Shown: one piece after another, positions 6,513 to 37,155 of the stretch | How the letters are laid out: each line of letters begins with the position of its first letter | Numbering within the stretch: position 1 is the stretch's first letter | NCBI GenBank assembly: GCA_028875055.1 | Contig: JAPPGG010000051.1 | Coordinates: forward strand, 1-51,998 | Direction of reading: 5' to 3' | Source of the DNA: Chloroflexota bacterium | Lineage (GTDB): Bacteria > Chloroflexota > Dehalococcoidia > Lucifugimonadales > UBA3495 | Length of the DNA: 51,998 bases | Made by a program: the position numbers and the translations under genes | Notes under the pieces: model-generated | The model's database searches: none | What the model was told of the DNA's origin: nothing | What the model saw: the letters and a program-made list of their open reading frames with translations, nothing else

Positions 6513-6860
6513 TCAGACGGAGGCAGGACAGCCGTGGAGGTTGCTCCCGGTGTCGTCATTCACGGTCATGGAGGAGCGGCCGCCGTCCACCGAAGCCGAG
6601 GCGCCGCTTGTGCTGCCCGCATCCCTGAATTCGGGTAGCGCCTGCCGGACCCGCCGGGACGCCTGCCGACAGCCGCAGCAGACCACCACGGTCCTTTGGT
6701 TCATGCCCAGTCTCTCGGTGGTGGGCGCCCGACCCCGTTCCTCCACTAGGGCATCCCGCAGGTCCAATAGGACAACCTTCGATAGGGGAGCGTCCGGCTC
6801 AATCTCCGGATGGTGGTTTACCTCCAAGGCGGCGTCAGCATCGTTCCAGGCTTTCACCAT
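6513..6860 (-). pseudogene. Family A remnant, N-terminal half
   Basis: Begins MVKAWND and runs through LLDLRDALVEERGRAPTTER and a CC-x5-SRRVRQAL segment, closely matching the gene at 36706 (LLDLLDALVEERGRVPAAEM). Homology stops at about residue 80 and the rest of the 115-residue frame is unrelated sequence. It is preceded by the same 211-bp conserved element found at 24443 and 36498. Confidence 0.55.
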
Positions 6861-7067
6861 GGGTCGAAACTACAATCTCCGCACTGCAATCCCTGCAATA
6901 AAGTGATTATGGACCCGCAGTAAATTGCTCGCCCGGCAATCTTCCAAATTCCGCCCCCAACGTCCCGTTCCCCGTAGGAAATATCCCCTGGATTGTATTC
7001 TGCAATCCTTTCATTTCTCCTTTCAGGGCGCCCACTGCGAAAATCCGGTCCGGGCGATTGCAGTCTG
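6858..7067 (-). repeat. Conserved ~211-bp 5' element, copy 1
   Basis: Extends from the start codon of the family A remnant upstream to GATTGCAGTCTGA. Shares with the copies at 24443-24654 and 36498-36708: a CTGAAAGG block, a GGATTG-7-CAATCC dyad (6990-7008), a TTCC-ACGGG-AA dyad, GAGCAATTTACTGCGG, a TATAAT-like box and several TGCAAT/ATTGTAG boxes. Likely a promoter-operator for family A; the box repetition is directly seen. Confidence 0.65.
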
Positions 7068-7351
7068 ATGCGTCAGGCTACCGCCGGCTCGCGGACGGGT
7101 CCGCCGGTCTGGGGGCCGCTGGCATGGCCGGAACGGTGCTGACGCTGACGCCGGGCAAGCACACGGCAATGGGAGCATCGGTCGGCTTTCGGAGTAGGGG
7201 GGCAAGTTCGGTGCCGGAGAGGTGTTGCGCGACGCGGGTTTCGGGCAATAGGATGGTGCGGCGCGGCGGGCGGCAGATTGCCATGCGCGGCAGTCCCTGG
7301 GCAACGACACGGAGCGTCGCCTCTGTCCCGTAACACGTGGGAGGTGAGCAA

Positions 7352-16299: not shown

Positions 16300-16896
16300 G
16301 TGACATCCCGGTCGGTCTACGCCGGCACCGCCCTGCGCGCCCTGGCCTCCCAGCCGCGCCACCACGGCGGCGTGATCAACTTCGCCGCCGCCCTGACCGC
16401 CGAGGTTGCCCGCTCCCAAGATTACGACCTGTTCGACCTGCTGCCCACTCACCGCTCCAGCATCGGCTACCGCCGGGGTCGCACCAACTACATGATCCAT
16501 CCCGACGCCTCCTTCACCCTGGAGTACCGGGGCCGGTGGCTGCCCTTCCTGCTGGAGTTCGAGCGAAGGGCCACCACGCCCAAGCGCATCCCCCCGCGCC
16601 TGGCGTCCTACCGCCGCTACTTCGCCTCCGGCTGGGCGGAGCGGGACCACGGGGGACATCTTCCATCGGTGCTGTTCGTCTTCGAGACCGCCGACAGCGA
16701 GGCCGCCTTCCTGGACATCGCCGACGGCATGGAGGGCCTGGACGTGACCACCGCCAACGCTGAGGCCCTGGGAGAGCACGGCGTCCTGGGCGAGGCGTGG
16801 ATACTGCCGCCCCCGCATTCCCTGGACCGGGCGCCGCTGGCCGGATTGTACCCTGTGCCCAAAGTACAATCTTCCTGCGCCGGGGATTTCCCGTAG
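16300..16896 (+). pseudogene. Replication-relaxation family protein, N-terminally truncated
   Basis: 198 residues matching only the C-terminal third of the full-length protein at 32031-33734. Shared landmarks: a helix near INFAAALTAEVA, the strand MIHPDASFTLEYRGRWLPFL, then LEFERRATTPKRIPPRLASY with RRYFASGW, then LPSVLFVFETADSEAAFLDI. The N-terminal winged-helix part is absent and the frame opens with a GTG lacking a ribosome site. A 75-80% look-alike lies at 24635-25258. Replic_Relax proteins (PF13814) are typical of plasmids and integrative elements. Confidence 0.7.
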
Positions 16897-20553: not shown

Positions 20554-20889
20554 GGAGAGTGCTTGCCGGACGCTTTCTCGGTTGCCACTGGAGGCCTATT
20601 AACTGACCCTGGTCGGCTGTACCGGGGCGCAACACCCGACGACCCGGTGGATGGAATGTTTAGTTTCTTCCCCGCAACCCCCGCCTGTTGCGGATCGGGT
20701 TTTCCGCGGCCGGTCATTGAATTACCGCCCTCGTACTTCAACCGACGGAGTTGGCAGGCTCCGAAAGGGCTCTGGCGAGGCCGCACCGCAGGGGAACTGC
20801 GTGGTCTCTGGGATTCATTGGTTTCCCAGGTACACGCTAATGGACTGGTGTTGGGTACGTACGCCCGTCCGCCGGAGTGCCGCACTTGA
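20554..20889 (+). pseudogene. Continuation of the preceding gene after the amber codon
   Basis: In the same frame as 20041-20553: GECLPDAFSVATGGLLTDPG, then LYRGATPDDPVDGMFSFFPA, CGSGFPRPVIELPPSYFN and GLWRGRTAGELRGLW, ending TGA. Composition and style match the upstream part, so the two pieces read as one protein of about 282 residues with a single nonsense codon. No independent ribosome site is seen for the TTG at 20563. Confidence 0.5.
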
Positions 20890-20949
20890 GCTGACAGATG
20901 TACCTTCACGCTAAAGTGGATCGAGTGGCTTGCACCTGCGTTCCTGGCA

Positions 20950-21249
20950 TCCTTCGGGAGGGCCGCCCACCTGCGACTTACTCCAGTGATACCGCTCCGG
21001 CGCGCCTGCCCAAGACGGGCCTCCCTTCTCTACCACACTATTCCTGGTGGACGGTGATGCGGAGGAGGAGACCAACGCCAGCACGGCGTCGGGCATGATC
21101 GCCACGTCGCTGCCAATTCTGGTGTCCGAAAGGCGATCCCGTCCGGCAGGAGGATGCAGGGCTGGTCCTGGCATTGCGAGAGCGGAGCCCACGAGTGGGA
21201 CGGTCTGCGCCGACAGATGCAGCGGCCGGAGACACGTCAATCACGCTGA
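20950..21249 (+). pseudogene. Decayed C-terminus of a replication-relaxation gene
   Basis: Frameshifted homology to the end of the intact gene at 32031: FSTTLFLVDGDAEEETNAST then ASGMIATSLPILVSER matches its FPTTLFVVDTEEVAETYAST and MPAMKLPILVSSRE, and GAHEWDGLRRQMQRPETR matches GAYEWDKLRRRMRRQETR. At least one frameshift lies near 21035 and an internal stretch is lost. The DNA after it matches the intact module too (21232-21525). Confidence 0.65.
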
Positions 21250-21525
21250 TACGGCATTCCTAATTGTCGTTAATCAATTCCCTCCCCATATCGTTGTCCG
21301 GGGGCGCAATTGGGCCTTGCGAGGGTGGTTGAGGAGGTTGGCCGGGCGCGGCGACGTATCATTTTCCTTGATTTCAGGTAGGAAACTAGCGCCGCTTTCC
21401 CTTGACCAGTCAGGCATTGTATTTCTACAACTCTGAAAAACCACGCTAAACCAGCGGGGGTGATTTTGGACCGTCAAGGGCAGAGTGCATTCGCCTGACG
21501 CATCGCCGGCGACCAGGTGAAACAC
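21232..21525 (+). repeat. Conserved region between replication-relaxation and HTH genes, decayed copy
   Basis: Aligns with the minus strand of 31790-32035: GGAGACACGT, TTGTCCGGGGGCGCAA, GGTTGGCCGGG, TTTCAGGTA, CCTTGACCA-TCA, GGGTGATTTTGG and CGCCTGACGCATCGCC occur in the same order. It is the 5' region of the HTH/coiled-coil gene in the intact module, so probably a promoter-operator. Over 290 bp of conserved non-coding sequence beside decayed genes suggests a functional site or recent duplication. Confidence 0.6.
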
Positions 21526-21537
21526 GTGCCAAACCAT

Positions 21538-21771
21538 ATGTCAGGCGGCGTCCGCCGGGTGGAGAAGGGGGAGGCTACGCTCCGGAAGGGGCGGGAAGCG
21601 CGGCGGCGGCGGTTTCAGGGGACTTTGCCCGGAGCCTTTCCCAGGGAGCGGCGCGCGGGTTGTGGACGGTCGGTGTACGATGCCCCGGTAGATAGCCCCG
21701 TCGCCCACCACAATCCCAACGCCAGGCCCGCCGAGGTTCAGCATGACCCCCGCGCTGAATTCAAGCATTGA
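21538..21771 (+). pseudogene. Decayed HTH/coiled-coil gene of the module
   Basis: Reads MSGGVRRVEKGEA then RKGREARRRRF and LPG, which corresponds to the start of the intact protein at 31775 (VHWVDKGEAA, IRKGEVEVGREGRRVYV, LPGP) with the recognition-helix region deleted. The AGGTGA ribosome site and the upstream conserved block are in the matching place. The remainder is unrelated. Confidence 0.45.
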
Positions 21772-21797
21772 CGTCCGACGTCCAGACGTCGTATCAT
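21768..21797 (+). promoter_or_regulatory. Promoter of the DNA methyltransferase with three GACGTC palindromes
   Basis: TTGACG (21768-21773), 18-bp spacer, TATCAT (21792-21797). Three GACGTC hexamers overlap the -35 and fill the spacer. Transcription would start close to 21804, the A of the ATG, so the mRNA is probably leaderless. Tight palindromic repeats inside the promoter suggest repression, common for restriction-modification timing. Confidence 0.6.
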
Positions 21798-21803
21798 GGC
21801 CTA

Positions 21804-22937
21804 ATGGAAACGCGAACCAAGAACGCGCCGGGCAGGGTGCGGGACGCCATAATCCAGGTTTTGGATGAATCCACCGAGCCGCTGTCCATCGGCCAAATTT
21901 CTGCCCGGGTCAGCGAGAACATCGGGGAGACTCCTACCTCTTCTGTCCGGTCCTATCTTCGTCTCAATACACCGGGACTTTTTCTCAGGGAGGGACGGGG
22001 ATTGTACCGCTCGAGCAATCCCAGGCTCACGGAGGAAGCCTCCAGAGGTCCCGTCGGAAAACGGCAGGAACCGTTCCGCCATCTCCTGTCCGTTCTGCAT
22101 CACGACGATTGCTTGCCATGGTTGGAACGACAGCCCGGCAATTCCTTCCACGCCGTAGTGACCGACCCCCCGTATGCGTTGTATGAATACAGTGACTGTC
22201 AGCAGGCCAAACTTCGCTCCCGTAAGGGAGGAGTGTGGAGGATTCCGCCGTCCTTTGATGGGGCAGTTAGGAACCCGATACCACGGTTCACCACCCTGAA
22301 CCAGCAACAGCTAGCCCACATTAGGGAGTTCTTCGAGCTGTGGGGGAAGCTGGTCCGCCGCGCCATCGTGCCTGGGGCCAACGTGGTCGTTGCCTCCAAT
22401 CCCTTGGTGTCCTACCTGGTGTCCGAAGCCTTGGCCAATTCCGGTTTGGAACGTCGGGGGGAAATTATTCGCCTGACCATGACGATGCGCGGCGGCGACC
22501 GTCCGAAGGGAGCCCACGAAGAATTCCCGGATGTTAGCGTGTTGCCAAGGTCGATGTGGGAACCCTGGCTCTTGTTCCGGAAGCCGCTGGATGGCAGAGT
22601 GCAGGACAACTTGCGGAAATGGGGCACGGGCGGCTTCCGGCGGCCCGGCCAGGACAAGCCATTTGGCGACGTACTGCCCTCGGCGCCGACTCGGGCGTCG
22701 GAACGACGCATCGCCCCTCATCCCAGCCTGAAGCCACAGTCCTACATGCGAACGCTGGTGAGGGGAGTCTTGCCCACGGGTGAAGGTGTCGTCCTGGACC
22801 CCTTCGCGGGAGCAGGTTCCACCCTGGCGGCGTGCAACGTGGTTGGATACTCCAGCGTCGGTGTGGAGAAGGATGCCGAATACTTTACCCTGGCCAGAGA
22901 ATCAATTCCCAAACTGACGGAATACGGTGCTGATTAG
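21804..22937 (+). CDS. DNA methyltransferase (beta-class, DPPY) with N-terminal winged helix
   Basis: 377 residues. About 1-75 looks like a winged-helix domain (IIQVLDESTEPLSIGQISAR). The catalytic motif DPPYALYEY comes first (about 123) and the AdoMet motif DPFAGAGSTLAACNVVGYSS comes near the C-terminus, the order of beta-class amino-methyltransferases (N6-adenine or N4-cytosine). It modifies a specific DNA site that cannot be read from sequence. It converges on a PD-(D/E)XK protein gene at 23130, so the two plausibly form a restriction-modification pair. The start follows the promoter directly with no leader. Confidence 0.88.
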   Translation: METRTKNAPGRVRDAIIQVLDESTEPLSIGQISARVSENIGETPTSSVRSYLRLNTPGLFLREGRGLYRSSNPRLTEEASRGPVGKRQEPFRHLLSVLHHDDCLPWLERQPGNSFHAVVTDPPYALYEYSDCQQAKLRSRKGGVWRIPPSFDGAVRNPIPRFTTLNQQQLAHIREFFELWGKLVRRAIVPGANVVVASNPLVSYLVSEALANSGLERRGEIIRLTMTMRGGDRPKGAHEEFPDVSVLPRSMWEPWLLFRKPLDGRVQDNLRKWGTGGFRRPGQDKPFGDVLPSAPTRASERRIAPHPSLKPQSYMRTLVRGVLPTGEGVVLDPFAGAGSTLAACNVVGYSSVGVEKDAEYFTLARESIPKLTEYGAD

Positions 22938-24201: not shown

Positions 24202-24445
24202 TCATCCCCCGGATTCCGGCGGCGGCTGCCTCACCCGGCGGGGCATCTGCCGGGAATCGCAGCAGGCTGCCATCGTCGCATTATTCACGCCCATGACCTC
24301 CGCTGCGGGGACGCCGCCGCGTTTCTCACCAGGTCGCTCAGCAAGTCCAACCGGGCGTCGTCTGATAGGGGTTCGTCCGGTTCCGCCCCGGGGTTGTGGC
24401 GCACCTCCAGGGCAGGCTCAACAATTTCTTTCACGGGCTTCTCAT
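24202..24445 (-). pseudogene. Family A remnant, frameshifted N-terminal half
   Basis: In two frames the minus strand reads VKEIVEPALEVRHNPGAEPD, EPLSDDARLDLLSDLV, then after a shift EKRGGVPAAEVMGVNN, CCDSRQMPRRVRQ, ending TGA at 24202. This matches the family A gene at 36706 (ALEVGCDPEVGPNAPLSG, PAAEMLEVN, CCDTRQVSRRMRRAL). It is preceded by copy 2 of the 211-bp element. Confidence 0.5.
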
Positions 24446-24654
24446 GGGTCAGGACTACAATCACTGCAATGCAATGTCTGCAATAATGTGATTATAGAGC
24501 CGCAGTAAAATGCTCGCCCGGAAGTCCCTCCATTGCCGCCCTCAACGCCCCTTTTCCCGTAGGAAAGTCCCCTGGATTGCAGAATACAATCTCCTCCCGA
24601 TTCCCTTTCAGGCCGCCCACTGTGAAAAGCCGGTTTGGGCGATTGCAGTTTGAC
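24443..24654 (-). repeat. Conserved ~211-bp 5' element, copy 2
   Basis: Same order of boxes as at 6858-7067 and 36498-36708, including TATAAT, GAGCATTTTACTGCGG and CCCGTAGGAAA. The GGATTG-7-CAATC dyad (24574-24592) has its 7-base centre in the opposite orientation (CAGAATA where the other two read TATTCTG, relative to the same flanks). The truncated replication-relaxation gene starts at its far edge. Confidence 0.65.
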
Positions 24655-25258
24655 GTGTCCGGCCCTCACCGCTGCCGACGCCGTCCAAATCGCGGACGGG
24701 TTGGCTTGGGTGATGACCGCAAAATCGCTAGGACCATTACCCACATTTTCAGAATCATTGACCACCCTGGCCGCCGCTCTCACCGCCGATTGCGCCCGCA
24801 GCAAGGTCTACGGCGTCCTGGAGCTGCTGCCCACCTCCCGCTCCCGCATCGGCTATCGCTACCAGGGCCAAGACTACGTGATCCACCCCGACGCCACGTT
24901 CTGGATATCATACCGGGGCGACCGGCGTCCCTACTTCCTGGAGTTCGAGCGCCGCGCCGTCACGCCCCGGCGAGTGCGCGCCAGGCTGGAGAACTACCGC
25001 CGCTATTTCCGCAGCGGCTACGCCCGCCGGGACCACGGCGGGGACCTGCCCCTGGTGCTGTTCGTCTTCGAGACTCCCAACGACGAGGACGCCTTCATGG
25101 ACGCCGCCAGCTACATCGATCACGCCCCCTTTGCCAGTTCCAACCTGGAAACCATCGTCCAACGGGGCATCCTGGCTGACACGTGGCTGCCGCCGGCGCC
25201 GGAACCCTGGGAAAGGCTGCCATTGCGGCGACTGGTCAAAGTGCAACTTTTCCGGTGA
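24635..25258 (+). pseudogene. Replication-relaxation family protein, N-terminally truncated
   Basis: About 200 residues of the C-terminal domain: YVIHPDATFWISYRGDRRPY, FLEFERRAVTPRRVRARLEN, YRRYFRSGYARRDHGGDLPL and VLFVFETPNDEDAF, very similar to 16300-16896. The winged-helix N-terminus of the intact family member is missing; the frame instead enters conserved element copy 2, so the 5' part has been replaced. An HTH/coiled-coil gene follows after about 240 bp, the same order as in the intact module. Confidence 0.65.
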
Positions 25259-25960: not shown

Positions 25961-25969
25961 AAGTGGAGC

Positions 25970-26296
25970 ATGGGCCAAACTCACGACGGCGAGGCAGCGG
26001 CGATGGGCAGCAAGGCAGGACAGCCGGAATACCCGGCCACATCCGACGAGATGACGGCTGCCCTGAACGCAGCCCTGGAAGCGGGCGACCTGAACAGCAT
26101 CATGGGCGTCATGGGCCGGATGGTCCGCGCCCACCGGATGCGGCGGGTGGCCCGGGAGACGGGCCTGGGCGAGAAGAGCCTGTACAAGTCCATGCGGGCC
26201 GGGGCCAACCCCGAGTTCAACACCGTGCTGCGGGTGCTGCGGTCCCTGGGGTTCCAACTCCAGGTCCGTCCCATTGCCGACCCGACCGACGATTAA
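25970..26296 (+). CDS. Antidote-like HTH protein (HigA/HI1420 type), no toxin partner
   Basis: 108 residues. The pattern matches the addiction-module antidote family: TSDEMTAALNAALEAGDLNS, then MGRMVRAHRMRRVARETGLG, EKSLYKSMRAGANPEFNTVL and RVLRSLGFQLQV. Normally a RelE-like toxin gene precedes it; none is present here. Lying 38 bases before the recombinase gene, it more likely regulates that gene. The ATG at 25970 fits a leaderless start; an ATG at 26003 is the alternative. Confidence 0.75.
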   Translation: MGQTHDGEAAAMGSKAGQPEYPATSDEMTAALNAALEAGDLNSIMGVMGRMVRAHRMRRVARETGLGEKSLYKSMRAGANPEFNTVLRVLRSLGFQLQVRPIADPTDD

Positions 26297-26334
26297 ACCA
26301 GCCGCCACCACGAGCAAGCGAAAAAGGAGAACAC

Positions 26335-27996
26335 ATGAAGAAACAGTTGCAACCCCTGACCCCGGCGGCCCTCTACGCCCGGGTCTCCAGCGACCGCCAG
26401 GACGTGGACCTCTCCGTGGCCGCCCAGCTTCGGGCCTTGAGAGACTACGCCAAGAACAACGGCTACTCTGTGGCCCGAGAGTACGTGGACGAGGCCGAGA
26501 GCGGCAGGATCGCCGACCGCCCCCAGTTCCGGGAGATGATCGAGGAGGGCAGCAGGCCAAAGGCACCTTTCCAGGTGATTCTGGTCTGGAAGTTTTCGAG
26601 ATTCACCCGCAAGCGGGAGCACGCTGTGGCCTTCAAGGCCCAGTTGCGGCGCAAGGGCATCCGCGTGGTGTCCATCACCGAGCAGGCCGAGGACAACGCC
26701 ACCGGCCGGCTGCTTGAGGGCATCATCGAGTCGGTGGACGAATATTACAGCGAGAATCTTGGGCAAGAAGTGACGCGGGGGATGCGGGAGGCCGCTTCCC
26801 GTGGTTTCTTCCTGGGTTCCAAGGCCCCCTTCGGCTACACCCGTGTCAAGGTCAGCGACGGGGTGAAGGACCGCCCCACCCTGGAGGTTGACCCCGTGTC
26901 CGCTCCGATAGTCAGGGAGATATTCGAGAGTTCCCGCCGGGGCAACGGGCTGGCGGAAATCTGCAAGGAGCTGAACGGGCGGGGCATCACCAACCGGGGC
27001 AAACGCTGGCAGAAGAACGTCGTCCACTACCTGCTGACCAACGAGGCTTACACCGGCACGGCGGTGTGGGGTGTGAAGAGCAAGGACGAGAAGGCGGGAG
27101 ACCCGGTGAGGGTGGAGAACGCCTGGCCCGCGTTGGTGTCCCGGGAGTTGTTCGACGCGGTGCAGCAGGGACTCCACCAGCGGGCGCCCACGGTGGCGCG
27201 GCCCGGCCGTGTCGGGAGCCAGTACCTGCTGAGCGGTCTCCTGCGCTGCGGGGTATGCGGCAGGTCCTACTCGGCCCAGGGAGCCAAGAGCGGCCAGTTC
27301 GCCTACTACGTCTGCTCCAGCCTGTTCCGGGAAGGAGCCGGAGCGTGCACCGCCCGCTACCTGAACGCCAGCAAGGTGGAGGACCTGGTGATCGAGAAGG
27401 TCAGGGAGCGGATTCTCACCGAGGAGACCATCACCGAGCTGGTGACCCTGGTGGCCGAGGAGATTGATGCTTTGGCCGGCGAGGTCAACGGCAGGCTGAC
27501 CGCCATCAACAGCGAGCTGTCCGACGTGGAGACCCGGTTGGAGAACCTCTACCAGGCCCTGGAGACCCAGCAGTTGCCCATCGAGGTCCTGTCGCCCCGC
27601 ATCCTGTCCCTGAAGAGCCGCCAGGACCAGCTTGTGGCGGCGCGGGAGGAAGCCGAGTTCCAGTTGGAGCAGCGGCGGGCGGAGCTGCCCACGTCGAAGG
27701 AGATCAAGGGGTACGTGGCGGACTTCCGCGCACTCTTCCAGGACGGCACTTTCCCGGAGCGGAAGGCCCTGATCCGCAACTTCGTGCAGGGCATCGAGAT
27801 CGTGGAGGACGAGGCGGTTCTGACGTACACCATCCCCATGCCCCAGGACGGGGTGACGTCGGAATCGGCCTCGGTTCTTGATTTTGTCCAGTCCGGCCCA
27901 CCAGACTTGACGGTAGACAGTACCGGGGAGTGCAAAGCCAGTTCCTCGGCGTCCTTTCCCCCTATCGGACTATTATCCGGCATCGGGATTGTGTAG
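26335..27996 (+). CDS. Large serine recombinase (integrase), plus strand
   Basis: 553 residues from the ATG at 26335 (AAAGGAGA upstream). Catalytic resolvase domain with YARVSSDRQDVDLSVAAQLR (nucleophile Ser18) and RFTRKREHA, a recombinase domain (PFGYTRVKVSDG, then NVVHYLLTNEAYTGTAVWG), a zinc ribbon (CGVCGRS ... YYVCSSLFREGAGAC) and a coiled coil. It catalyses integration or excision between att sites. About residue 522 lies at the centre of an 18-bp imperfect palindrome; beyond it the frame is antisense to the opposing recombinase gene, so the native C-terminus appears to have been replaced. Confidence 0.9.
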   Translation: MKKQLQPLTPAALYARVSSDRQDVDLSVAAQLRALRDYAKNNGYSVAREYVDEAESGRIADRPQFREMIEEGSRPKAPFQVILVWKFSRFTRKREHAVAFKAQLRRKGIRVVSITEQAEDNATGRLLEGIIESVDEYYSENLGQEVTRGMREAASRGFFLGSKAPFGYTRVKVSDGVKDRPTLEVDPVSAPIVREIFESSRRGNGLAEICKELNGRGITNRGKRWQKNVVHYLLTNEAYTGTAVWGVKSKDEKAGDPVRVENAWPALVSRELFDAVQQGLHQRAPTVARPGRVGSQYLLSGLLRCGVCGRSYSAQGAKSGQFAYYVCSSLFREGAGACTARYLNASKVEDLVIEKVRERILTEETITELVTLVAEEIDALAGEVNGRLTAINSELSDVETRLENLYQALETQQLPIEVLSPRILSLKSRQDQLVAAREEAEFQLEQRRAELPTSKEIKGYVADFRALFQDGTFPERKALIRNFVQGIEIVEDEAVLTYTIPMPQDGVTSESASVLDFVQSGPPDLTVDSTGECKASSSASFPPIGLLSGIGIV

Positions 27997-29480
27997 CGCA
28001 CCACGGCGGCCCCGGGCTGCACCACGATCTCCCTGACGAAGGACTCGATGAAAGCTCGTCGCTCGGTAAGCTCGCTCTCGTTCAGGTAACGGCTCAGGTC
28101 CTCGCAGTAGGCGGTAATCGTTTCCACGTCGTCCAGCACCACCCGGCGCTGGGATAGCAGCACCCTGGCCTCCTCCGCCGTCGCCACAAGTTTCTCCTGA
28201 CGCTCCCGGTGGTCCCGGATGCGGGGCTTGAAGTCCTCGATGTCCAGGTCGGTGGTCTCCGCCAGGTTGTAGAGCCGCTCCAGCCTCCGCTTCACGTCGG
28301 CCAGTTCCGCCTCGGCGGTCTCCAGCCGCTGGCGCTGCTCCCGGGCTATGCCGTCCATCTCCTCGTCCACCAGCTTGACCAGTTCCCTGATGTTGGACTC
28401 GGTGAGGATGTTGTCCCGAATCCTGCCGACCACCATCTCCTCGAACCTGCGGGCGTTCAGCCTGGGGCAGTCGCAGGCCCCGCTGCCCCGCTTCATCAGG
28501 GACTGGCAGACGTAGTAGGCGAACTGGCCGCTCTTGGAGTCCTGGCCCGACATGGCGCGGCGGCACGCCTTACACTTGACCAAGCCACTCAGCAGGTAGG
28601 AACTGGCCACCCGCCGGGGGTGTACCTGCTTGGGGGCGCGGGAACGTAGTTGCTTGTTCACCCTGCGGAACTGGGTCTTGGACACGATGGCAGGGAAGGC
28701 GTTCTCCACGCGCACCGGCTCGCCCTTGTGCTTGGCGGATGTTCCCCAGGTCAAAGTGCCGGTATAGGTCTCGTTGCGCAGGATGATGTGGACGCCGTTC
28801 TTGGACCAGGGCCGGCCGGTGGGGTTGGCGATGCCCTCGTCGTTCAGGGTGCGGGTGATGTCCAGGATGCCGTGGCCGGCCTCGGCCAGGTTGAAGATGC
28901 GCCAGACCACTGGCGAGGTGTCCGGGTCGAGTTCCAGGGTAGGGCGTTTCTTGGCCCCGTCCTGGACCATGATCTTGCGATAGCCGTAGGGAACTCTGCT
29001 GGCGACCCAGAAGCCCCGGGAGGCGGCTTCCCGCATCCCCCGGTAAACCTCTTCGGCAAGATTTTCGCTGTAGAATTCGTCCACTGACTCGATGATGGCC
29101 TCCATGAGCTTGCCGGTGGGGGAGTCGTCGGCGTGCTCGGTGATGGAGACCACGCGGACTCCCTTGCGCCGGAGCATGGACTTGAAGGCGACGGCGTGTT
29201 CCCGCTTGCGGGTGAACCTGGAAAACTTCCAGACGAGAATCTCGCTAAAGGGCGACTCCGGCTTGGAAGCCTCGTCCAGCATCTTGCGGAACTGTGGGCG
29301 GTCGGCGATTCTGCCGCTCTCGGCCTCGTCCACGTACTCGCGGGCTACGGAGTAGCCGTTACGCTCGGCGTAATCCCGGAGCGCCCGCATCTGAGCGGCC
29401 ACGGAGAGGTCCACGTCCTGGCGGTCGCTGGAAACGCGGGCGTACAGGGCCGCCGGTATCAGGTCAATTCCATTACTCAT
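27549..29480 (-). CDS. Large serine recombinase (integrase), minus strand
   Basis: Starts MSNGIDLIPAALYARVSSDR at 29480. Same domain order as the plus-strand enzyme and very similar up to YTIPMP (FSRFTRKREHAVAFKSMLRR, a CKAC ... YYVCQSLMKRGSGAC zinc ribbon). About 528 residues are genuine recombinase; the last ~115 (27549-27890) are antisense to the opposing gene and have no recombinase character. The two genes thus meet at nearly the same residue number. A ribbon-helix-helix gene overlaps the start (ATGAGTAATGG), implying coupling. Confidence 0.88.
   Translation of the reverse strand: MSNGIDLIPAALYARVSSDRQDVDLSVAAQMRALRDYAERNGYSVAREYVDEAESGRIADRPQFRKMLDEASKPESPFSEILVWKFSRFTRKREHAVAFKSMLRRKGVRVVSITEHADDSPTGKLMEAIIESVDEFYSENLAEEVYRGMREAASRGFWVASRVPYGYRKIMVQDGAKKRPTLELDPDTSPVVWRIFNLAEAGHGILDITRTLNDEGIANPTGRPWSKNGVHIILRNETYTGTLTWGTSAKHKGEPVRVENAFPAIVSKTQFRRVNKQLRSRAPKQVHPRRVASSYLLSGLVKCKACRRAMSGQDSKSGQFAYYVCQSLMKRGSGACDCPRLNARRFEEMVVGRIRDNILTESNIRELVKLVDEEMDGIAREQRQRLETAEAELADVKRRLERLYNLAETTDLDIEDFKPRIRDHRERQEKLVATAEEARVLLSQRRVVLDDVETITAYCEDLSRYLNESELTERRAFIESFVREIVVQPGAAVVRYTIPMPDNSPIGGKDAEELALHSPVLSTVKSGGPDWTKSRTEADSDVTPSWGMGMVYVRTASSSTISMPCTKLRIRAFRSGKVPSWKSARKSATYPLISFDVGSSARRCSNWNSASSRAATSWSWRLFRDRMRGDRTSMGNCWVSRAW
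27873..27925. other. Recombinase junction / candidate attachment site
   Basis: 53 bp spanning the point where the two recombinase genes meet. The centre AGTCCGGCCCACCAGACT (27890-27907) is an imperfect palindrome encoding SGPPD on one strand and SGGPD on the other. The arms GGTTCTTGATTTTGTCCAG and GACTTGACGGTAG recur at 49098-49150 in inverted orientation. It may be a recombination product of the encoded enzymes. Confidence 0.5.
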
Positions 29481-29702
29481 TGATTTCACCTCGATCATTG
29501 TCTCCGGGTTCCGCTTGGCGGGAGCGCAGCCTTTTCCGGCGCTGCTCGCGGCGCAGTTCCCGGTCTTCCATGTACAATCGCAGGGCCTCCCGCACCAGTT
29601 CGCTCATGTCGCGGCCCTCTTCTTCCTTCACCCGCTGGACCTGCTCGTACATTTCCGGCGGCAGCGAGAAGGTGATGGTCCTGGAAATGCGCGTGGGGGC
29701 AT
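29473..29702 (-). pseudogene. Ribbon-helix-helix (CopG-like) regulator with a start-proximal frameshift
   Basis: A short frame overlapping the recombinase start encodes TRISRTITFSLPPEMYEQVQ then RVKEEEGRDMSELVREALRL, a textbook RHH fold (strand-helix-helix). The natural ATG at 29702 is one base out of frame: ATG is followed by five C residues where six would give MPPTRISRTI. Either the C-run is a mutation, sequencing error or phase-variable tract, or translation starts elsewhere. The stop TAA lies inside the recombinase start. Likely a repressor of the recombinase gene. Confidence 0.6.
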
Positions 29703-30934: not shown

Positions 30935-31319
30935 TGTCGCAACCCCTATAGCATAATTTCCACCCTCGTAGCGTTTCGCTCTTGGGTGGTCGATTGATCG
31001 CCGATTTTCAAAGTGCTCACCAGCAAATTCGGGGTAATCCGAGCACAAGGTAGCAGCGTTTGAGCGCAGCGGCTCGGTTCTCAAACAGCAAGAACTTGCT
31101 TGTGATGGTTAGCGGGGTATGGCAGAAGGGTTTATTGCGCCGGCCTGAGCATCCAGTAAACCCCGCAGAGTTTCACCGATTCGAATCCCACTCCCATTCT
31201 ATCACCCGCTGACGAACCACCTTGCGATGGCACCAGCTACTTCCACAGCTGCGCGGCTTGGATGATTTGGACCGGCGACACAATCCGGGCTTCCAGAAAG
31301 TCAGCGACAATTGCGCACC
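30935..31319. other. Gap with a T-loop-like string but no RNA gene
   Basis: Contains ATTCGAATCCCACTCCC near 31179, reminiscent of a tRNA T-arm and 3' end, but the flanking bases do not pair and no tRNA body precedes it on either strand. A short palindrome AGCAAG-AA-CTTGCT lies near 31087. No coding frame is convincing. Confidence 0.4.
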
Positions 31320-31775
31320 TCACGAGGCCAAAAGCCACGCTACCACACCGCTGACCGCCAGCAGCACGACCAGCGCCACGACGGCAATGCCCAGTCTGGC
31401 AACCCAACGCTTCGTCCGTTGGTGGGTGCTCTGCTCCCGGACCAGTTCCGCCTCCAACCTGCCGCATTCGCCCATGGCGGCCTCCGTCTCGCCTCTGGCC
31501 TGGTCCCGCTCCTGTTCCAATTGGTCCGCTTCCTCCGCCAGTTCCTCCACCTTCCGCCGAAACTCTTCAACCCTGGCCCGGGATTGCCGCAGCAGCTCCC
31601 GGTCGCTGGGGTAGCGGGGTCCGGGCAGCTTCACGTACACCCGCCGGCCTTCTCTCCCTACCTCCACCTCGCCCTTGCGGATCATCCGGTCCAGGGTCGA
31701 TAGCGATACCTCCAACTCCCGCGCCGCCTCCCCTTTGTCCACCCAGTGGACGTCATTTTTGACGTTATCTGACAT
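31320..31775 (-). CDS. HTH/coiled-coil protein with C-terminal membrane helix
   Basis: 151 residues from the ATG at 31775 (GAGGTGAT five bases upstream). Excisionase/MerR-like HTH (VDKGEAARELEVSLSTLDRM then IRKGEVEVGREGRRVYV), a long coiled coil (about 50-115) and a hydrophobic C-terminal segment (IAVVALVVLLAVSGVVAWLL). A DNA-binding domain tied to the membrane by a coil is unusual and could tether element DNA. It is a paralogue of 25496-25834 and lies downstream of the replication-relaxation gene. Confidence 0.7.
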   Translation of the reverse strand: MSDNVKNDVHWVDKGEAARELEVSLSTLDRMIRKGEVEVGREGRRVYVKLPGPRYPSDRELLRQSRARVEEFRRKVEELAEEADQLEQERDQARGETEAAMGECGRLEAELVREQSTHQRTKRWVARLGIAVVALVVLLAVSGVVAWLLAS

Positions 31776-31789
31776 GTAAATCACCTCGT

Positions 31790-32035
31790 CAATGGCGATG
31801 CGTCAGGCGATTGCACTCTTGCCAAAATCACCCTGGTTGTTTTAGCGCCGTTTCTCACACTTGCAAAAATGCAATTTTTGAATGGTCAAGGGGAATTTCA
31901 GCCCGTTTCGTACCTGGAACCAGGGGACATTGACGCATCGCGGTCTCCCGGCCAACCTCTGAAAACACCCCCGGAGGAAAGTTTGCGCCCCCGGACAACA
32001 GGGCGGGTAGAAGAAGCCGTGTCAGCATGATTAAC
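31790..32035 (-). repeat. Conserved region between replication-relaxation and HTH genes, intact copy
   Basis: Counterpart of 21232-21525. Ordered shared blocks include TTGTCCGGGGGCGCAA, GGTTGGCCGGG, CCTTGACCATTCA, GGGTGATTTTGG and CGCCTGACGCATCGCC, ending at the ribosome site of the HTH gene. Likely a promoter with operators; the CCTTGAC could be a -35 region, but no clear -10 is seen. Confidence 0.6.
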
Positions 32036-33734
32036 GTGTCTCCTGCCGGCGCATACGTCGGCGCAGTTTGTCCCACTCGTATGCCCCCAACTCGCACAGC
32101 GCCAGCGGCGCACGTTCCGGTTCCCACAGGGGGCGCCAGGACCGGCCCAGTATCCCCCTATAGGACAGAAGCTCCCTACTGGACACCAGGATGGGCAGCT
32201 TCATGGCAGGCATCCGGGACGCCGTGCTGGCGTAGGTCTCCGCCACCTCCTCGGTGTCCACCACGAACAGCGTGGTCGGGAAGGGCGGCTGGTCATCCCG
32301 GGGCGCGTCGGAGCGGTAGTAGCGGGAGTAGGGTCGCAGGCGGGCGGCCACTCCCCTGGGGTGGCGGGCGCGCAGCTCGTGCTCGAGGTAGAAGGGCACG
32401 TGCAGGGCGTTGACGAGCAGGTGCCCCACGGCGTCGGGGGCGATGGCGTCCTCGCCCCGGTTGAAGGCCCGGTCCGAGCGGGCGGTGGGAATGGACCACC
32501 GGAGTTCGCTGGCGCCCTCGGCCCGGGCCTCGGCGGCCAGTTCGGACAGGAACCAGGTGATGCCGTCGGCGTGGCCGGTCTGACGCTGCCAGGTGAGGAT
32601 GCGGTGTCCCAGGGGCCGGGGCCGTCCGTGATTGTCGGCAGCAGGCTCGGTGCTCCAGGCGGCCATGGTGGTGGACAGTTGCGCCCGGTCCCGGCGGGTG
32701 ATGTACCTGATGCCCCGGTCGGACACGGCGTAGCGCACGTCGCTCCGCTTGCCGTGCTGTTCCACCAGGCCCCAGGTCTGCGTCAGGCTGCGGGTCATCT
32801 GGCTGACCCTCCCGTCGGACACGCCCAGCCAGCGGGCCAGGTGTTCCCGGGGGATCATCGGGTAGTCGGTGATCAGGTCCAGGGCGCGCTTCTCCGAGGG
32901 GCTGAGGCCGAAGGCCGGGACGGACTGGACCATCCGCTCCGGATCGGGTAGGGACGCCCGCTTGCGCTCCGGCGCCTCCGGTTGAAACTGTCCGCCGGGG
33001 TCGGCGTCGGAGACCACCTGCTCCAGGGTGCGGTATCTCCTGGCAACCACCCAGTTGGAGGAAATCCAGGATAAGCGCTCCCACGCTTCCAGGGTCTCGC
33101 GGCGCTCCACGCCTACGAAATAGTCCCTGAAGTCCGCGTTGAGGCAGAACTCGTCGGTGAGCCGCTGCTCCCAGGGACTGGGAACCAGGACCAGCACCAT
33201 TGAGGGACGGCGGTTGTGGTGGTACTCGGCGATGGCCCGCAGCCGGTCGTAGAGGGAGCGGCGCCGCAGCGCCAGCCCCTGGCGCACCACGCCGAAGCTG
33301 CGGCCGTTGTGGAGCGTGATCACCGCGTCGAACCGGCCCCGGCGCTGGAACTCCACCTGGGTTTCCCGCCCGTCCACGCCGGGGGATAGCGTTGCTGCCA
33401 GGCGGCACACCGAAGCCACGGCGTCAATGCGGCGTATGAGCAATGCCAGCCACTGCCTGGACACGGGGTAGGCCCGCATGAAGCCCGAGGGCGCGTCGTA
33501 GCCCAGGGCTTCGGCGGCCTGGGCGATGCCCTTCTTCGTGAGGTAGTAGCGGTGGCTGGAGGGCAGATGGGCCGTGCCGTGGCTCACCCGCCCGGCCAGG
33601 CCGTCCTTCAGCAGTGTGGCAAGGGCGCGGTGGACCGTCGCCAGAGGTTCGCCCAGGACCAGGGCCAGTTCCCCCGCGTCGATGAGGGGCAGCCGGGCCA
33701 GGGCGTCCAGGATGCGCTCTCGTGAGAATGCCAT
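32031..33734 (-). CDS. Replication-relaxation family protein (full length)
   Basis: 567 residues. The N-terminus is a winged helix (ILDALARLPLIDAGELALVL, then VHRALATLLKDGL and YYLTKKG), a middle region has a second winged helix (LSPSEKRALDLITDYPMIPR, then WLGVSDGRVSQMTRSL), and the C-terminal domain (about 400-530) contains AIAPDAVGHLLVN, YLEHELRARHPRGVAARLRP, FPTTLFVVDTEEVAETYAST. The family (PF13814) is found on plasmids and integrative elements and is linked to plasmid replication and DNA relaxation; biochemistry is scant. The C-terminal layout resembles nuclease-like folds, but I see no firm catalytic set. This is the only full-length copy of four in the window. Confidence 0.8.
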   Translation of the reverse strand: MAFSRERILDALARLPLIDAGELALVLGEPLATVHRALATLLKDGLAGRVSHGTAHLPSSHRYYLTKKGIAQAAEALGYDAPSGFMRAYPVSRQWLALLIRRIDAVASVCRLAATLSPGVDGRETQVEFQRRGRFDAVITLHNGRSFGVVRQGLALRRRSLYDRLRAIAEYHHNRRPSMVLVLVPSPWEQRLTDEFCLNADFRDYFVGVERRETLEAWERLSWISSNWVVARRYRTLEQVVSDADPGGQFQPEAPERKRASLPDPERMVQSVPAFGLSPSEKRALDLITDYPMIPREHLARWLGVSDGRVSQMTRSLTQTWGLVEQHGKRSDVRYAVSDRGIRYITRRDRAQLSTTMAAWSTEPAADNHGRPRPLGHRILTWQRQTGHADGITWFLSELAAEARAEGASELRWSIPTARSDRAFNRGEDAIAPDAVGHLLVNALHVPFYLEHELRARHPRGVAARLRPYSRYYRSDAPRDDQPPFPTTLFVVDTEEVAETYASTASRMPAMKLPILVSSRELLSYRGILGRSWRPLWEPERAPLALCELGAYEWDKLRRRMRRQETR

Positions 33735-34042
33735 ATCTTCAGCGTAACAGCCGGAAGCCGCCGCCGTCAGTGGGCAATTGTCACTCCTAGCTTAGAAGAA
33801 GGTAGCAACTCCAGGATCTGGGAGGACAGCCGGAATGACCCCGTTGGCCAGTTCATCCTGTTAAGGTGGATCGCGATACTAGGATACTATTCGCCCGGAG
33901 CGGCCAATCCCGGTCGATAGCTGGTCCTCACCGCAGTGAAGAGGTAGATGGTGCGGCCGTTGGGCAGGTCCCTGCAGAGTGCGAATTTCAAAGTGCGGGT
34001 CATCGAGATGCATTTATCGTACTGGTCTGGAGTTGTCTCGGG
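33735..34042. other. Gap of about 310 bp
   Basis: A 38-codon minus frame (MTRTLKFALCRDLPNGRTIY followed by LFTAVRTSYRPG, near 33892-34008) may be a gene fragment, but it lacks support. No promoter clear enough to call for the replication-relaxation gene. Confidence 0.3.
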
Positions 34043-35916: not shown

Positions 35917-36214
35917 GATTTCTCCTGCGGTGGGTGATGATTCACCTTCATTCGTTTGATCCATCCACCGCTGGGCCAAGGCGTCTCTTGCTACCTTGGG
36001 CATTATATCATTCTGGGCTATCAGGGCTTAGCATTTCTGCTCAGCGGCTTGGCCGAGGCGGACGTGCAGCGTATCGTAGGCATCGTAGTGCGGGATGGGC
36101 AGGTTACAGCCGTGCTAGTGACAGTTCCTGATTTTCCAGTCCCATTTAGACACAAGATGAACGGCGATCTGGCCCCTTCAGGAAACTCCAACAGCACTTT
36201 TGTCAAGTGGAAAC

Positions 36215-36289
36215 CTCTTGGACGGGCTGGACGACTTGGCCAACGATCAGGGCTGGATACCTGCCGCCGAGGTTCTGGGGGTAAATTAC
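36215..36289 (+). pseudogene. Family A fragment, 25 codons
   Basis: LLDGLDDLANDQGWIPAAEV and LGVNY match LLDLLDALVEERGRVPAAEM and LEVN of the family A gene that starts 417 bp downstream. It is too short to function; it marks a tandem duplication or replacement of the family A locus. The surrounding 35917-36497 holds no other supportable gene. Confidence 0.45.
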
Positions 36290-36497
36290 CCAGGCCGGCA
36301 CTTTGCTACGACAACCGGTAGGTGTCCCTGCAGATGTGGCAGATGAAGGTGGGCTTCAGGAATTCGGGCGACGGCGACCAGTAGGAAACTGACGACGAAA
36401 TCCTAGCCCGGCATGTGAAGGAATTTGATACTCGCGCCGACAATTTTCCGGGACCGGGGAGACGGCCCGGCGGAACTCTTCCCGAAAGCTCCGACGT

Positions 36498-36708
36498 GTC
36501 AAACTGCAATCCTCTCAAGCGGTTTCCCGCAGTGCGCACCCTGAAAGGAGAAATGAAAGGATTGCAGAATACAATCCAGGGGCATTTCCTACGGGAAATT
36601 GAGCGTTGGGGACGAAGTTTTGGGTATTACAGGGCGAGCAATTTACTGCGGCTCTATAATCACTTTATTGCAGGAATTGCAGTGCTGAGATTGTAGTTTC
36701 GACCCATG
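36498..36708 (+). repeat. Conserved ~211-bp 5' element, copy 3
   Basis: Ends at the ATG of the family A gene. Contains the dyad GGATTG-CAGAATA-CAATCC (36559-36577), TTTCCTACGGGAAA, GAGCAATTTACTGCGG, TATAAT (near 36656) and ATTGCAG/GATTGTAG boxes. The TATAAT position fits a promoter, but no good -35 hexamer stands 16-18 bp upstream, so an activator may be needed. Confidence 0.65.
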
Positions 36709-37155
36709 GTGAAAGCCTTGAACGACGATGACTACGACGCCCTGGAGGTGGGCTGCGACCCCGAGGTGGGACCGAACGCTCCCCTATCGGGCGACGTCCT
36801 ATTGGACCTGCTGGACGCCCTGGTGGAGGAACGAGGCCGGGTGCCCGCCGCCGAGATGCTGGAGGTAAATTGCCGCACCCTGGCCTTCTGCTGCGATACC
36901 CGGCAGGTCTCCCGGCGGATGCGACGTGCGCTGGTGGACTTCAGCAATACGGGCGAGGCCGGTGGCGGCGAATCGCATGTTGGTGATGGTCTGCCGGACG
37001 AAGGTGTGGTGGTTCTGCGCCAGCGGACGGCTGACCTGGAGGACGAAAACGCCGAGCTGCGGAAGTTGGCAGGTGATCAGGCGCGCCAGCTGGAGGAGCT
37101 GACCGGTAGGCCGCGCTGGAAGGCGCAAGCCAACCGGACGAAGCTGCCGAAGTAG
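36706..37155 (+). pseudogene. Family A gene, N-terminal part (HTH + coiled coil)
   Basis: 149 codons: VLLDLLDALVEERGRVPAAE then CCDTRQVSRRMRRALVDF (HTH-like) and LRQRTADLEDENAELRKLAG (coil), ending TAG at 37155. The C-terminal domain follows in another frame at 37197. Compared with the intact gene at 3515, the protein is split. Either this is a frameshifted gene or a variant in which the two domains are made separately. Confidence 0.55.

Follow-up and report, generated by a model that had tools for sequence, protein, structure and literature searches.

The window, as the whole stretch of 51,998 bp analysed here is called, corresponds to contig C9 of a Chloroflexota genome of 3.75 Mb in 75 contigs (98% complete). 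An intact module (W32) lies on its minus strand and opens with an intact gene of 567 aa (RR-A; 32031–33734, −) encoding a winged helix-turn-helix (HTH) and a Replic_Relax domain (PF13814, E 6.7e-7, 30 bits against a cut-off of 25.3), with a match to MarR_2 as well; PF13814 was matched in 13 of 18 Replic_Relax (RR) proteins, this one included. The RR gene is the 5′ neighbour of the block examined in this study, which is defined as the interval between the RR gene and a short gene for an excisionase-like HTH protein. In W32 the block spans 31776–32030 (−), between RR stop and HTH start, as delimited by homologous copies and an alignment of 15 of the 23 copies collected. The HTH gene (31320–31775, −) is intact and encodes 151 aa from its ATG, comprising an excisionase-like winged HTH, a long helix and a C-terminal stretch that resembles a membrane helix. 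Cargo and then a large serine recombinase (LSR2; 27549–29498, −) follow downstream on the same strand, and at two loci with little cargo the gap between HTH and recombinase is 262 bp (L045) and 334 bp (L042).

The DNA before the RR start codon (33735–33783, and 540–628 in locus L011) is a conserved promoter-like stretch that runs up to this codon, and given this position the RR transcript may be leaderless. A sharp upstream boundary is common to all four intact modules of the genome, and the homology among modules extends from near 33783 to the LSR 3′ end. The serine recombinase genes at 25963–27996 (+) and 27549–29498 (−), both with resolvase, recombinase and zinc-ribbon domains (PF00239, PF07508, PF13408), lie tail to tail with an overlap of 448 bp, and the same overlap was observed in L009 and L011. 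Several loci share one LSR1 end point (after ..CC(A/G)CCA) and differ in the DNA that follows it; the overlap junction thus has the appearance of a recombination point through which both frames are read. The constant LSR1 end and the sharp upstream boundary may mark the ends of the element in the window, for which no empty site was mapped. The block was also considered as the usual element end and rejected, since module homology stops elsewhere with the exception of one junction described below. The window further contains fragments of RR-B, a diverged RR subfamily with more genes and pieces in the genome, at 16342–16842 and 24761–25225, and a dispersed repeat of ∼460 bp whose copies (6615–7078, 24207–24663, 36214–36371 and 36493–36954) are 71–78% alike. 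Relatives of the RR protein were found at 79 loci, mostly in metagenome bins of Chloroflexota, Dehalococcoidia and SAR202, and one bin each carrying the label Bryobacterales, Gammaproteobacteria or Gemmatimonadota.

A second, decayed module (W21) lies on the plus strand. Its RR remnant (20936–21240, +) was recognised by tblastn as RR 454–520 with a stop and RR 547–567 as a separate piece, and its HTH gene is likewise a remnant (21526–21767, +). Between the two lies the block (21241–21525, +, the start being approximate), identified by homology, alignment and the constraint test described below. The ORF behind this decayed module encodes a DNA methyltransferase (21768–22937, +; PF01555, E 8.3e-14) and is a candidate for a gene that the block still serves. 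An earlier note on this DNA had read 21232–21525 (+) as a non-coding block shared between intact and decayed modules, and this homology was confirmed (E 3.4e-35 to 31776–32030, −); four further copies in the same genome were matched with E 5.5e-62 or better. A count of copies, which the note had proposed, gave six RR-block-HTH modules in this genome, four of them intact (W32, C31, C49a, C49b) and two decayed (C35, W21), and 23 related block copies in 10 of 50 family genomes, all collected with the block as query.

The block contains a dyad, TGAC-NN-GTCA, two or three times. In W32, site 1 (31931–31940, −) reads CGATGCGTCA in the sense of the module and TGACGCATCG on the opposite strand, and stands 52 bp before site 2 (31879–31888, −; TGACCATTCA, 7/8 dyad letters). 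Site 3 (31796–31805, −; TGACGCATCG, 6/8 dyad letters) is directly upstream of the HTH ribosome-binding site, and this degenerate state of sites 2 and 3 (7/8 and 6/8 letters) is that of the intact copies in this genome. Between sites 2 and 3 lie a palindrome, TTGCA-TTTT-TGCAA (31861–31874, −), which is absent from the A′ clade and has TTGTA-TTTC-TACAA as its counterpart in W21, and a GCTAAA core (31841–31846, −), a candidate −10 region at distances of 42 bp (site 2) and 41 bp (site 3). The decayed copy W21 carries site 1 at 21352–21361 (+; CGACGTATCA), a perfect site 2 at 21403–21412 (+; TGACCAGTCA), the GCTAAA core at 21445–21450 (+) and site 3 at 21496–21505 (+; TGACGCATCG), where a 10-bp insertion has widened the distance to site 2 to 93 bp. 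The same insertion, near one helical turn, bears on the two words GGGTGATTTTGG and CGCCTGACGCATCGCC that the earlier note had placed at equal positions in the two modules: both words do occur in each, but they are 34 bp apart, start to start, in W21 (21458, 21492) and 24 bp apart in W32 (31833, 31809). The first of them, GGGTGATTTTGG, was also considered as a nick site, a reading that was rejected because the resemblance is too weak.

The preservation of the block relative to its neighbouring genes was assessed in two ways. Raw identity between W21 and W32 amounted to 179/253 (71%, 34 gap columns) for the block, 151/203 (74%, 37 gap columns) for the final 240 nt of the RR gene and 105/240 (44%, 8 gap columns) for the HTH gene over its first 240 nt. 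The block therefore exceeds the HTH gene and falls below the RR end, and the claim of the earlier note that the block is better kept than the flanking genes stands on one side only when judged by raw identity; it stands on both when judged against constrained positions. For the latter comparison, 13 intact copies, taken from this genome and from related ones, served to define invariant positions in the block (116 positions), the last 240 nt of RR (166) and the first 120 nt of HTH (76). The six copies judged to have both genes decayed kept 84–92% of these positions in the block versus 54–75% in the RR end. In W21, the block was the best-kept stretch of the decayed locus (105/116, versus 119/166 in the RR end and 37/76 in the HTH start), and the corresponding values, in the same order, were 103/116, 91/166 and 38/76 for G5c36; 102/116, 90/166 and 37/76 for G65c50; 107/116, 124/166 and 46/76 for G65c120; and 98/116, 115/166 and 30/76 for G4c284. 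Those for C35 were 105/116, 107/166 and 65/76, its assignment as decayed being a judgement, since its HTH frame is open (although diverged) and its HTH start is 86% kept. Fisher tests for the six copies gave p values of 2.3e-5 to 6e-12 for the block against both flanks, and 0.005 to 4e-10 against the RR end alone. As a control, the 13 intact copies, each left out in turn, retained 92–100% in all three parts. Where gene damage was milder (G26c199, G62c136 and G13c6) the block was no better kept than the genes, and in G13c6 it was worse kept (p 1.5e-5); the 23rd copy, G3c15, through which a contig end cuts, was left out of both the intact and the decayed groups. In the decayed copies, then, the block has outlived its neighbouring genes.

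Which parts of the block are conserved may be explained by dyads recognised in more distant relatives. The diverged RR-HTH intervals of the A′ clade (RR identity 63–64%) and of loci in G246, G248, G102, G075 and G078 (54–67%) have only pieces of the A block in common, yet carry TGAC-NN-GTCA. A total of 15 perfect dyads was counted in 10 distant intervals, against a mean of 0.036 and a maximum of 1 in 500 rounds of dinucleotide shuffling, in a test that is partly circular, since the motif had originally been recognised in part of those intervals; L185 and L199 were examined once the motif was already fixed. There were zero perfect dyads in G102, and dyads were absent from G075c96. Among the A copies, site 2 reads TGACCATTCA, TGACCAATCA or the perfect dyad, while site 3 is most often TGACGCATCG, a word that had also been picked out in the earlier note, and site 1 is read on the other strand. 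As a test of specificity, 250 genomes of the order were searched for paired perfect dyads (TGACNNGTCA, 70–88 bp, TGACNNGTCA). This pattern was found at 10 places in 7 genomes and the reversed control pattern at 0; all 10 places adjoin RR and/or HTH sequence, and three of them are loci not previously encountered. Within the window's own genome, a relaxed dyad pair was matched at three places, W21, C31 and C35, two of which are decayed modules, and was not matched in W32, C49a or C49b. At G246 (L135/L198), L185 and L199 the HTH gene begins ∼1 kb after RR; G246 has a further ORF with HTH-like sequence between block and HTH, and ∼500 bp after RR there is a further perfect dyad in L198 and a near-perfect one in L199.

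The dyads are also regularly spaced. For 21 of the 23 A copies, the aligned distance from site 2 to site 3 was either 82 or 83 bp; the remaining two, W21 (93 bp, +10) and G13c6 (94 bp, +11), carry insertions at different places that retain the phase. Other clades had distances of 82 (A′ and G248), 85, 93, 94, 95 and 96 bp, so that all aligned spacings fell within 82–85 or 93–96 bp and none between 86 and 92 bp. The GCTAAA-like core lies 31–32 or 42–43 bp from site 2 and 40–41 or 51–54 bp from site 3, and in A copies sites 1 and 2 are 50–52 bp, about five turns, apart. By comparison of the distinct spacings with random draws at 10.5 bp per turn, sites 2 and 3 lie on the same helical face (p 0.0013) and the distances to the core are phased as well (p 0.006 and 0.0009), these p values being rough because the copies are related, and so not independent, and the distinct values few. 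The best-fitting periods (11.8, 12.3 and 11.1 bp) were longer than 10.5 bp. Probabilities calculated for the indels presuppose independent events and were set aside. In 12 of the 23 A copies the automatic scan chose a different 10-mer as site 3, at 109 bp, overlapping the HTH start and out of phase; these 12 rows were left out of the phasing test and the aligned site 3 was substituted by judgement, whereas phasing between sites 2 and 3 was weak when all automatic rows were used (Rayleigh R 0.24 at 10.5 bp). A GCTAAA-like core, with small variants, was present in 36 scanned intervals, the script having required such a core. A sigma-70 promoter search gave zero matches in 31200–33900, and no −35 box was seen at a constant distance from the core.

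The properties of the HTH protein are relevant to what may bind these sites. HTH_17 was matched in 13 of 15 family members, with that of W32 below the cut-off, and the structural model (mean pLDDT 88) consists of a winged HTH (9–51) and a single helix (58–150). All 15 proteins have a strongly hydrophobic C-terminus, with maximum Kyte-Doolittle values of 1.88–3.23 over 19 residues. Foldseek matches of the HTH part were to the excisionases Pukovnik Xis (4j2n; probability 1.00, E 0.29, 1.1 Å over 40 columns) and RdfS (8dgl; probability 0.98, E 0.46, 38–40 columns), and also to BldC and RacA (5i44, a weak match, E 0.3); none was found at E 0.001, and all four had E above 0.2. Like phage and ICE excisionases of this kind, the protein has a winged HTH fold and its gene is linked to an integrase; unlike them, it carries a long helix and a membrane-helix-like end, and its candidate sites precede the gene start rather than lying at a known attachment site. 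Comparison of the HTH profile with the PDB gave weak matches to tropomyosin coiled coils (E 0.04), and DUF536 was absent from the Pfam matches of the 15 proteins (E 0.001).

Co-occurrence points to the HTH protein as the probable binder of the dyads. In a census of A-clade RR loci (21 of 27 used, the other 6 having no RR 3′ end in the contig), an HTH gene was found behind RR in 20 of 21, the exception, L188, being without a dyad, and a perfect dyad was present in 12 of 21. The B-clade loci (47 of 52 used, with 2 left out by choice and 3 having under 600 bp behind RR) had no HTH gene (0/47) and no perfect dyad (0/47), a contrast that is confounded by descent. Furthermore, the 110 bp before the diverged HTH-b genes contain TGAC words in direct orientation (three in W25, three in C60 and five in C35; the script placed 3 of 5 loci, C25 and G002 being those not placed). 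Together with the association of dyads and HTH, these words suggest that TGAC is likely the half-site of this HTH family. Alternatively, the dyads could be bound by the winged HTH of the RR protein. In the RR model (mean pLDDT 67.7, a low confidence), a winged-HTH-like region with an alpha/beta part behind it occurs twice, which suggests an internal duplication; the PDB matches of the model, mostly MarR-like, were not relied on given that low confidence.

Several other explanations of the block were considered. The apparent preservation could be that of a relic, produced by ascertainment with the block as query together with chance slower decay. When the 50 genomes were searched with RR DNA alone, C35, G5c36 and G65c50 were missed, so that three of the six decayed copies are known only through the block; moreover, there was no block match beside three internal RR fragments in the 50 genomes (G005:C39, G003:C40 and G065:C36), and the block is missing behind an open RR-A′ gene on the plus strand of C18, in this case because of an A′ element junction at the RR/block border. 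However, the block is borne by all six damaged copies that the RR search recovered and whose RR 3′ end is covered by the contig (W21, G4c284, G65c120, G26c199, G62c136 and G13c6), and for the three among them with both genes decayed, p values against the RR end alone did not exceed 0.005. The orthologous copies G5c36 and G65c50 represent a single locus in two species and were counted as one event; their identity is highest from −300 to +300 around the block (56–60 of 60 bases per window) and mostly 45–59 of 60 further out, with fewer where gapped. We consider the relic explanation very improbable, and rate only slightly above it the proposal that the RR/block border is an attachment site at which the serine recombinase recombines. 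This proposal draws on one A′ element (L094 2941|2942, L086 3762|3763, L093 2484|2485) that was broken open exactly between RR and block, inside an RR-B gene, for which both junctions and an uninterrupted RR-B relative on contig C60 were observed, with no target duplication seen. Against it, this is a single event with no shared core dinucleotide recognised, RR and block are joined in 13 intact A copies and in three A′ copies (C61, the minus-strand copy on C18, and G26c254), and the constant point at which LSR1 abruptly ends is a better candidate for an element end. The least probable of the explanations is that the block encodes a structured RNA, either a leader or a small RNA. A predicted helix, GUC-C-GGGG/CCCC-UU-GAC, has one double change in G4c284 and a short hairpin is compensated in W21, but the covariance and structure search proposed in the earlier note did not bear this out: the covariation term was weak (+0.74), only 5 of 48 pairs had any double change among 15 folded copies, no Rfam match fell within the block, and the palindromes are equally explicable as protein sites. 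An RNA element was rejected on these grounds. Rfam gave nothing in 31300–33850 at E up to 1, and in 20800–22000 a single sub-threshold match outside the block, to the RT-19 RNA (21767–21849, +; 25.8 bits against a gathering threshold of 78.3, E 0.012), that is probably due to chance.

The earlier note had offered an origin, a transfer site or a dense operator as possible functions. Of these the dense operator is favoured, on account of the dyads, their phasing, the position upstream of HTH and conservation across diverged modules. An origin of transfer or replication would be used by the Replic_Relax protein in cis, and be served in trans in decayed copies. PF13814 is listed as the relaxase MobC of streptococcal mobilizable elements (PMC5357655), and the integrative mobilizable elements of streptococci that carry it (Rel_PF13814/MobC; PMC5357655, PMC12479173) resemble the present ones in that they are integrative and encode a protein with a Replic_Relax domain, and some also carry an orphan methyltransferase (PMC12479173); furthermore, the block directly follows the RR gene and survives the loss of genes. 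Unlike in those elements, block and HTH belong to the module here and the hosts are mainly Chloroflexota, and the S. suis elements are described as encoding a coupling protein of the VirD4 type (PMC12479173), whereas a search of this genome (G000) for that type (PF02534) gave no match, with 5 of 14 control genomes positive. The homologous B-clade loci lack perfect dyads, so that dyads go with HTH and not with RR alone; nothing specific to nicking was seen in the block; searches for the block in PLSDB plasmids, for the RR protein among phage records and for one exact pattern of the block in IMG/VR gave zero matches. An origin therefore appears improbable to us, if a little less so than an attachment site. 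The main rival, which we regard as unlikely, is a centromere-like or membrane docking site, at which the HTH protein would tether element DNA through the dyads for segregation or positioning. Membrane tethering has been proposed for RocS and possibly for pSK1 Par (PMC11500499), and the predicted layout of a winged HTH, a helix at 58–150 and a hydrophobic C-terminus in 15 of 15 proteins would fit, as would the tropomyosin coiled-coil matches and the weak fold match to RacA. RocS, RacA and Par have been described with the same three parts, namely a MerR-type winged HTH, a coiled coil or long helix and, in RocS, C-terminal membrane contact (PMC11500499), although here these parts are predictions only, and the C-terminal helix is hydrophobic and transmembrane-like rather than amphipathic as reported for RocS (PMC11500499). 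The HTH family differs further from RocS and Par in having no DUF536 match, few sites (only 2–3 per block) and a gene that adjoins a serine recombinase. In this genome relaxed pairs are confined to module loci (pairs, not single dyads, were counted), and integrated elements should, by reasoning, need no segregation.

In view of the observed homology, constraint in decayed copies, dyads, spacing and gene order, we think it reasonably probable that the block, in decayed copies as well as intact ones, is a phased operator-promoter island of mobile elements in Chloroflexota. Two TGAC-NN-GTCA-like dyads (three in the A subfamily) occupy one helix face at a separation of 8 or 9 turns and flank a core with a −10-like GCTAAA, before the start of the HTH gene. 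The HTH protein would probably bind the dyads as dimers and bridge them, and bridging would loop out or clamp the putative promoter; the HTH gene, the cargo behind it and the serine recombinase would thereby be autoregulated. The islands of decayed copies could then be governed in trans by HTH protein from intact copies elsewhere in the genome. Gal/lac-type two-operator looping employs palindromic operators, a promoter and a GalR/LacI repressor. As in that system, perfect or near-perfect palindromes at two or three places flank a promoter-like core, approximately integral turns apart, upstream of the gene for a DNA-binding protein; unlike there, the putative binder is an excisionase-like winged HTH protein with a membrane-helix-like end and not of the GalR/LacI type, and looping and promoter activity are predictions here. 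It is also possible, although we hold it to be unlikely, that a membrane-anchored excisionase-like protein bridges the phased dyads and holds its own control region at the membrane, the dyads of decayed copies being docking sites controlled in trans.

On the operator-promoter reading, continued activation or silencing of the cargo gene that follows is most likely why the island has been kept in decayed copies. The same-strand gene downstream of the decayed block in W21 is, by family match, a methyltransferase. Family matches likewise identified a Uma2 gene downstream of G65c120 and, ∼0.9 kb from G5c36, a Type ISP coupler region with an interrupted frame. The regions downstream of G4c284 and G65c50 showed DNA homology to the G5c36 region only, and no downstream gene was identified behind the decayed block of C35. 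These neighbours suggest that decayed blocks may still serve downstream genes.

A literature search found no paper combining sponge, Chloroflexi and serine recombinase. If dyads of decayed copies are indeed membrane docking sites controlled in trans, intact elements would govern gene-dead relatives and their restriction-modification cargo across one genome. TGAC-NN-GTCA pairs ∼8 or 9 turns apart are a concrete candidate for a cis-acting code in a multi-copy family of Chloroflexota serine-recombinase elements able to carry restriction-modification genes. The block is an example of regulatory DNA, if that is its role, surviving longer than the adjacent genes. Lastly, should the HTH protein bind from the membrane, excisionase-like proteins would be linked with membrane positioning proteins such as RocS.
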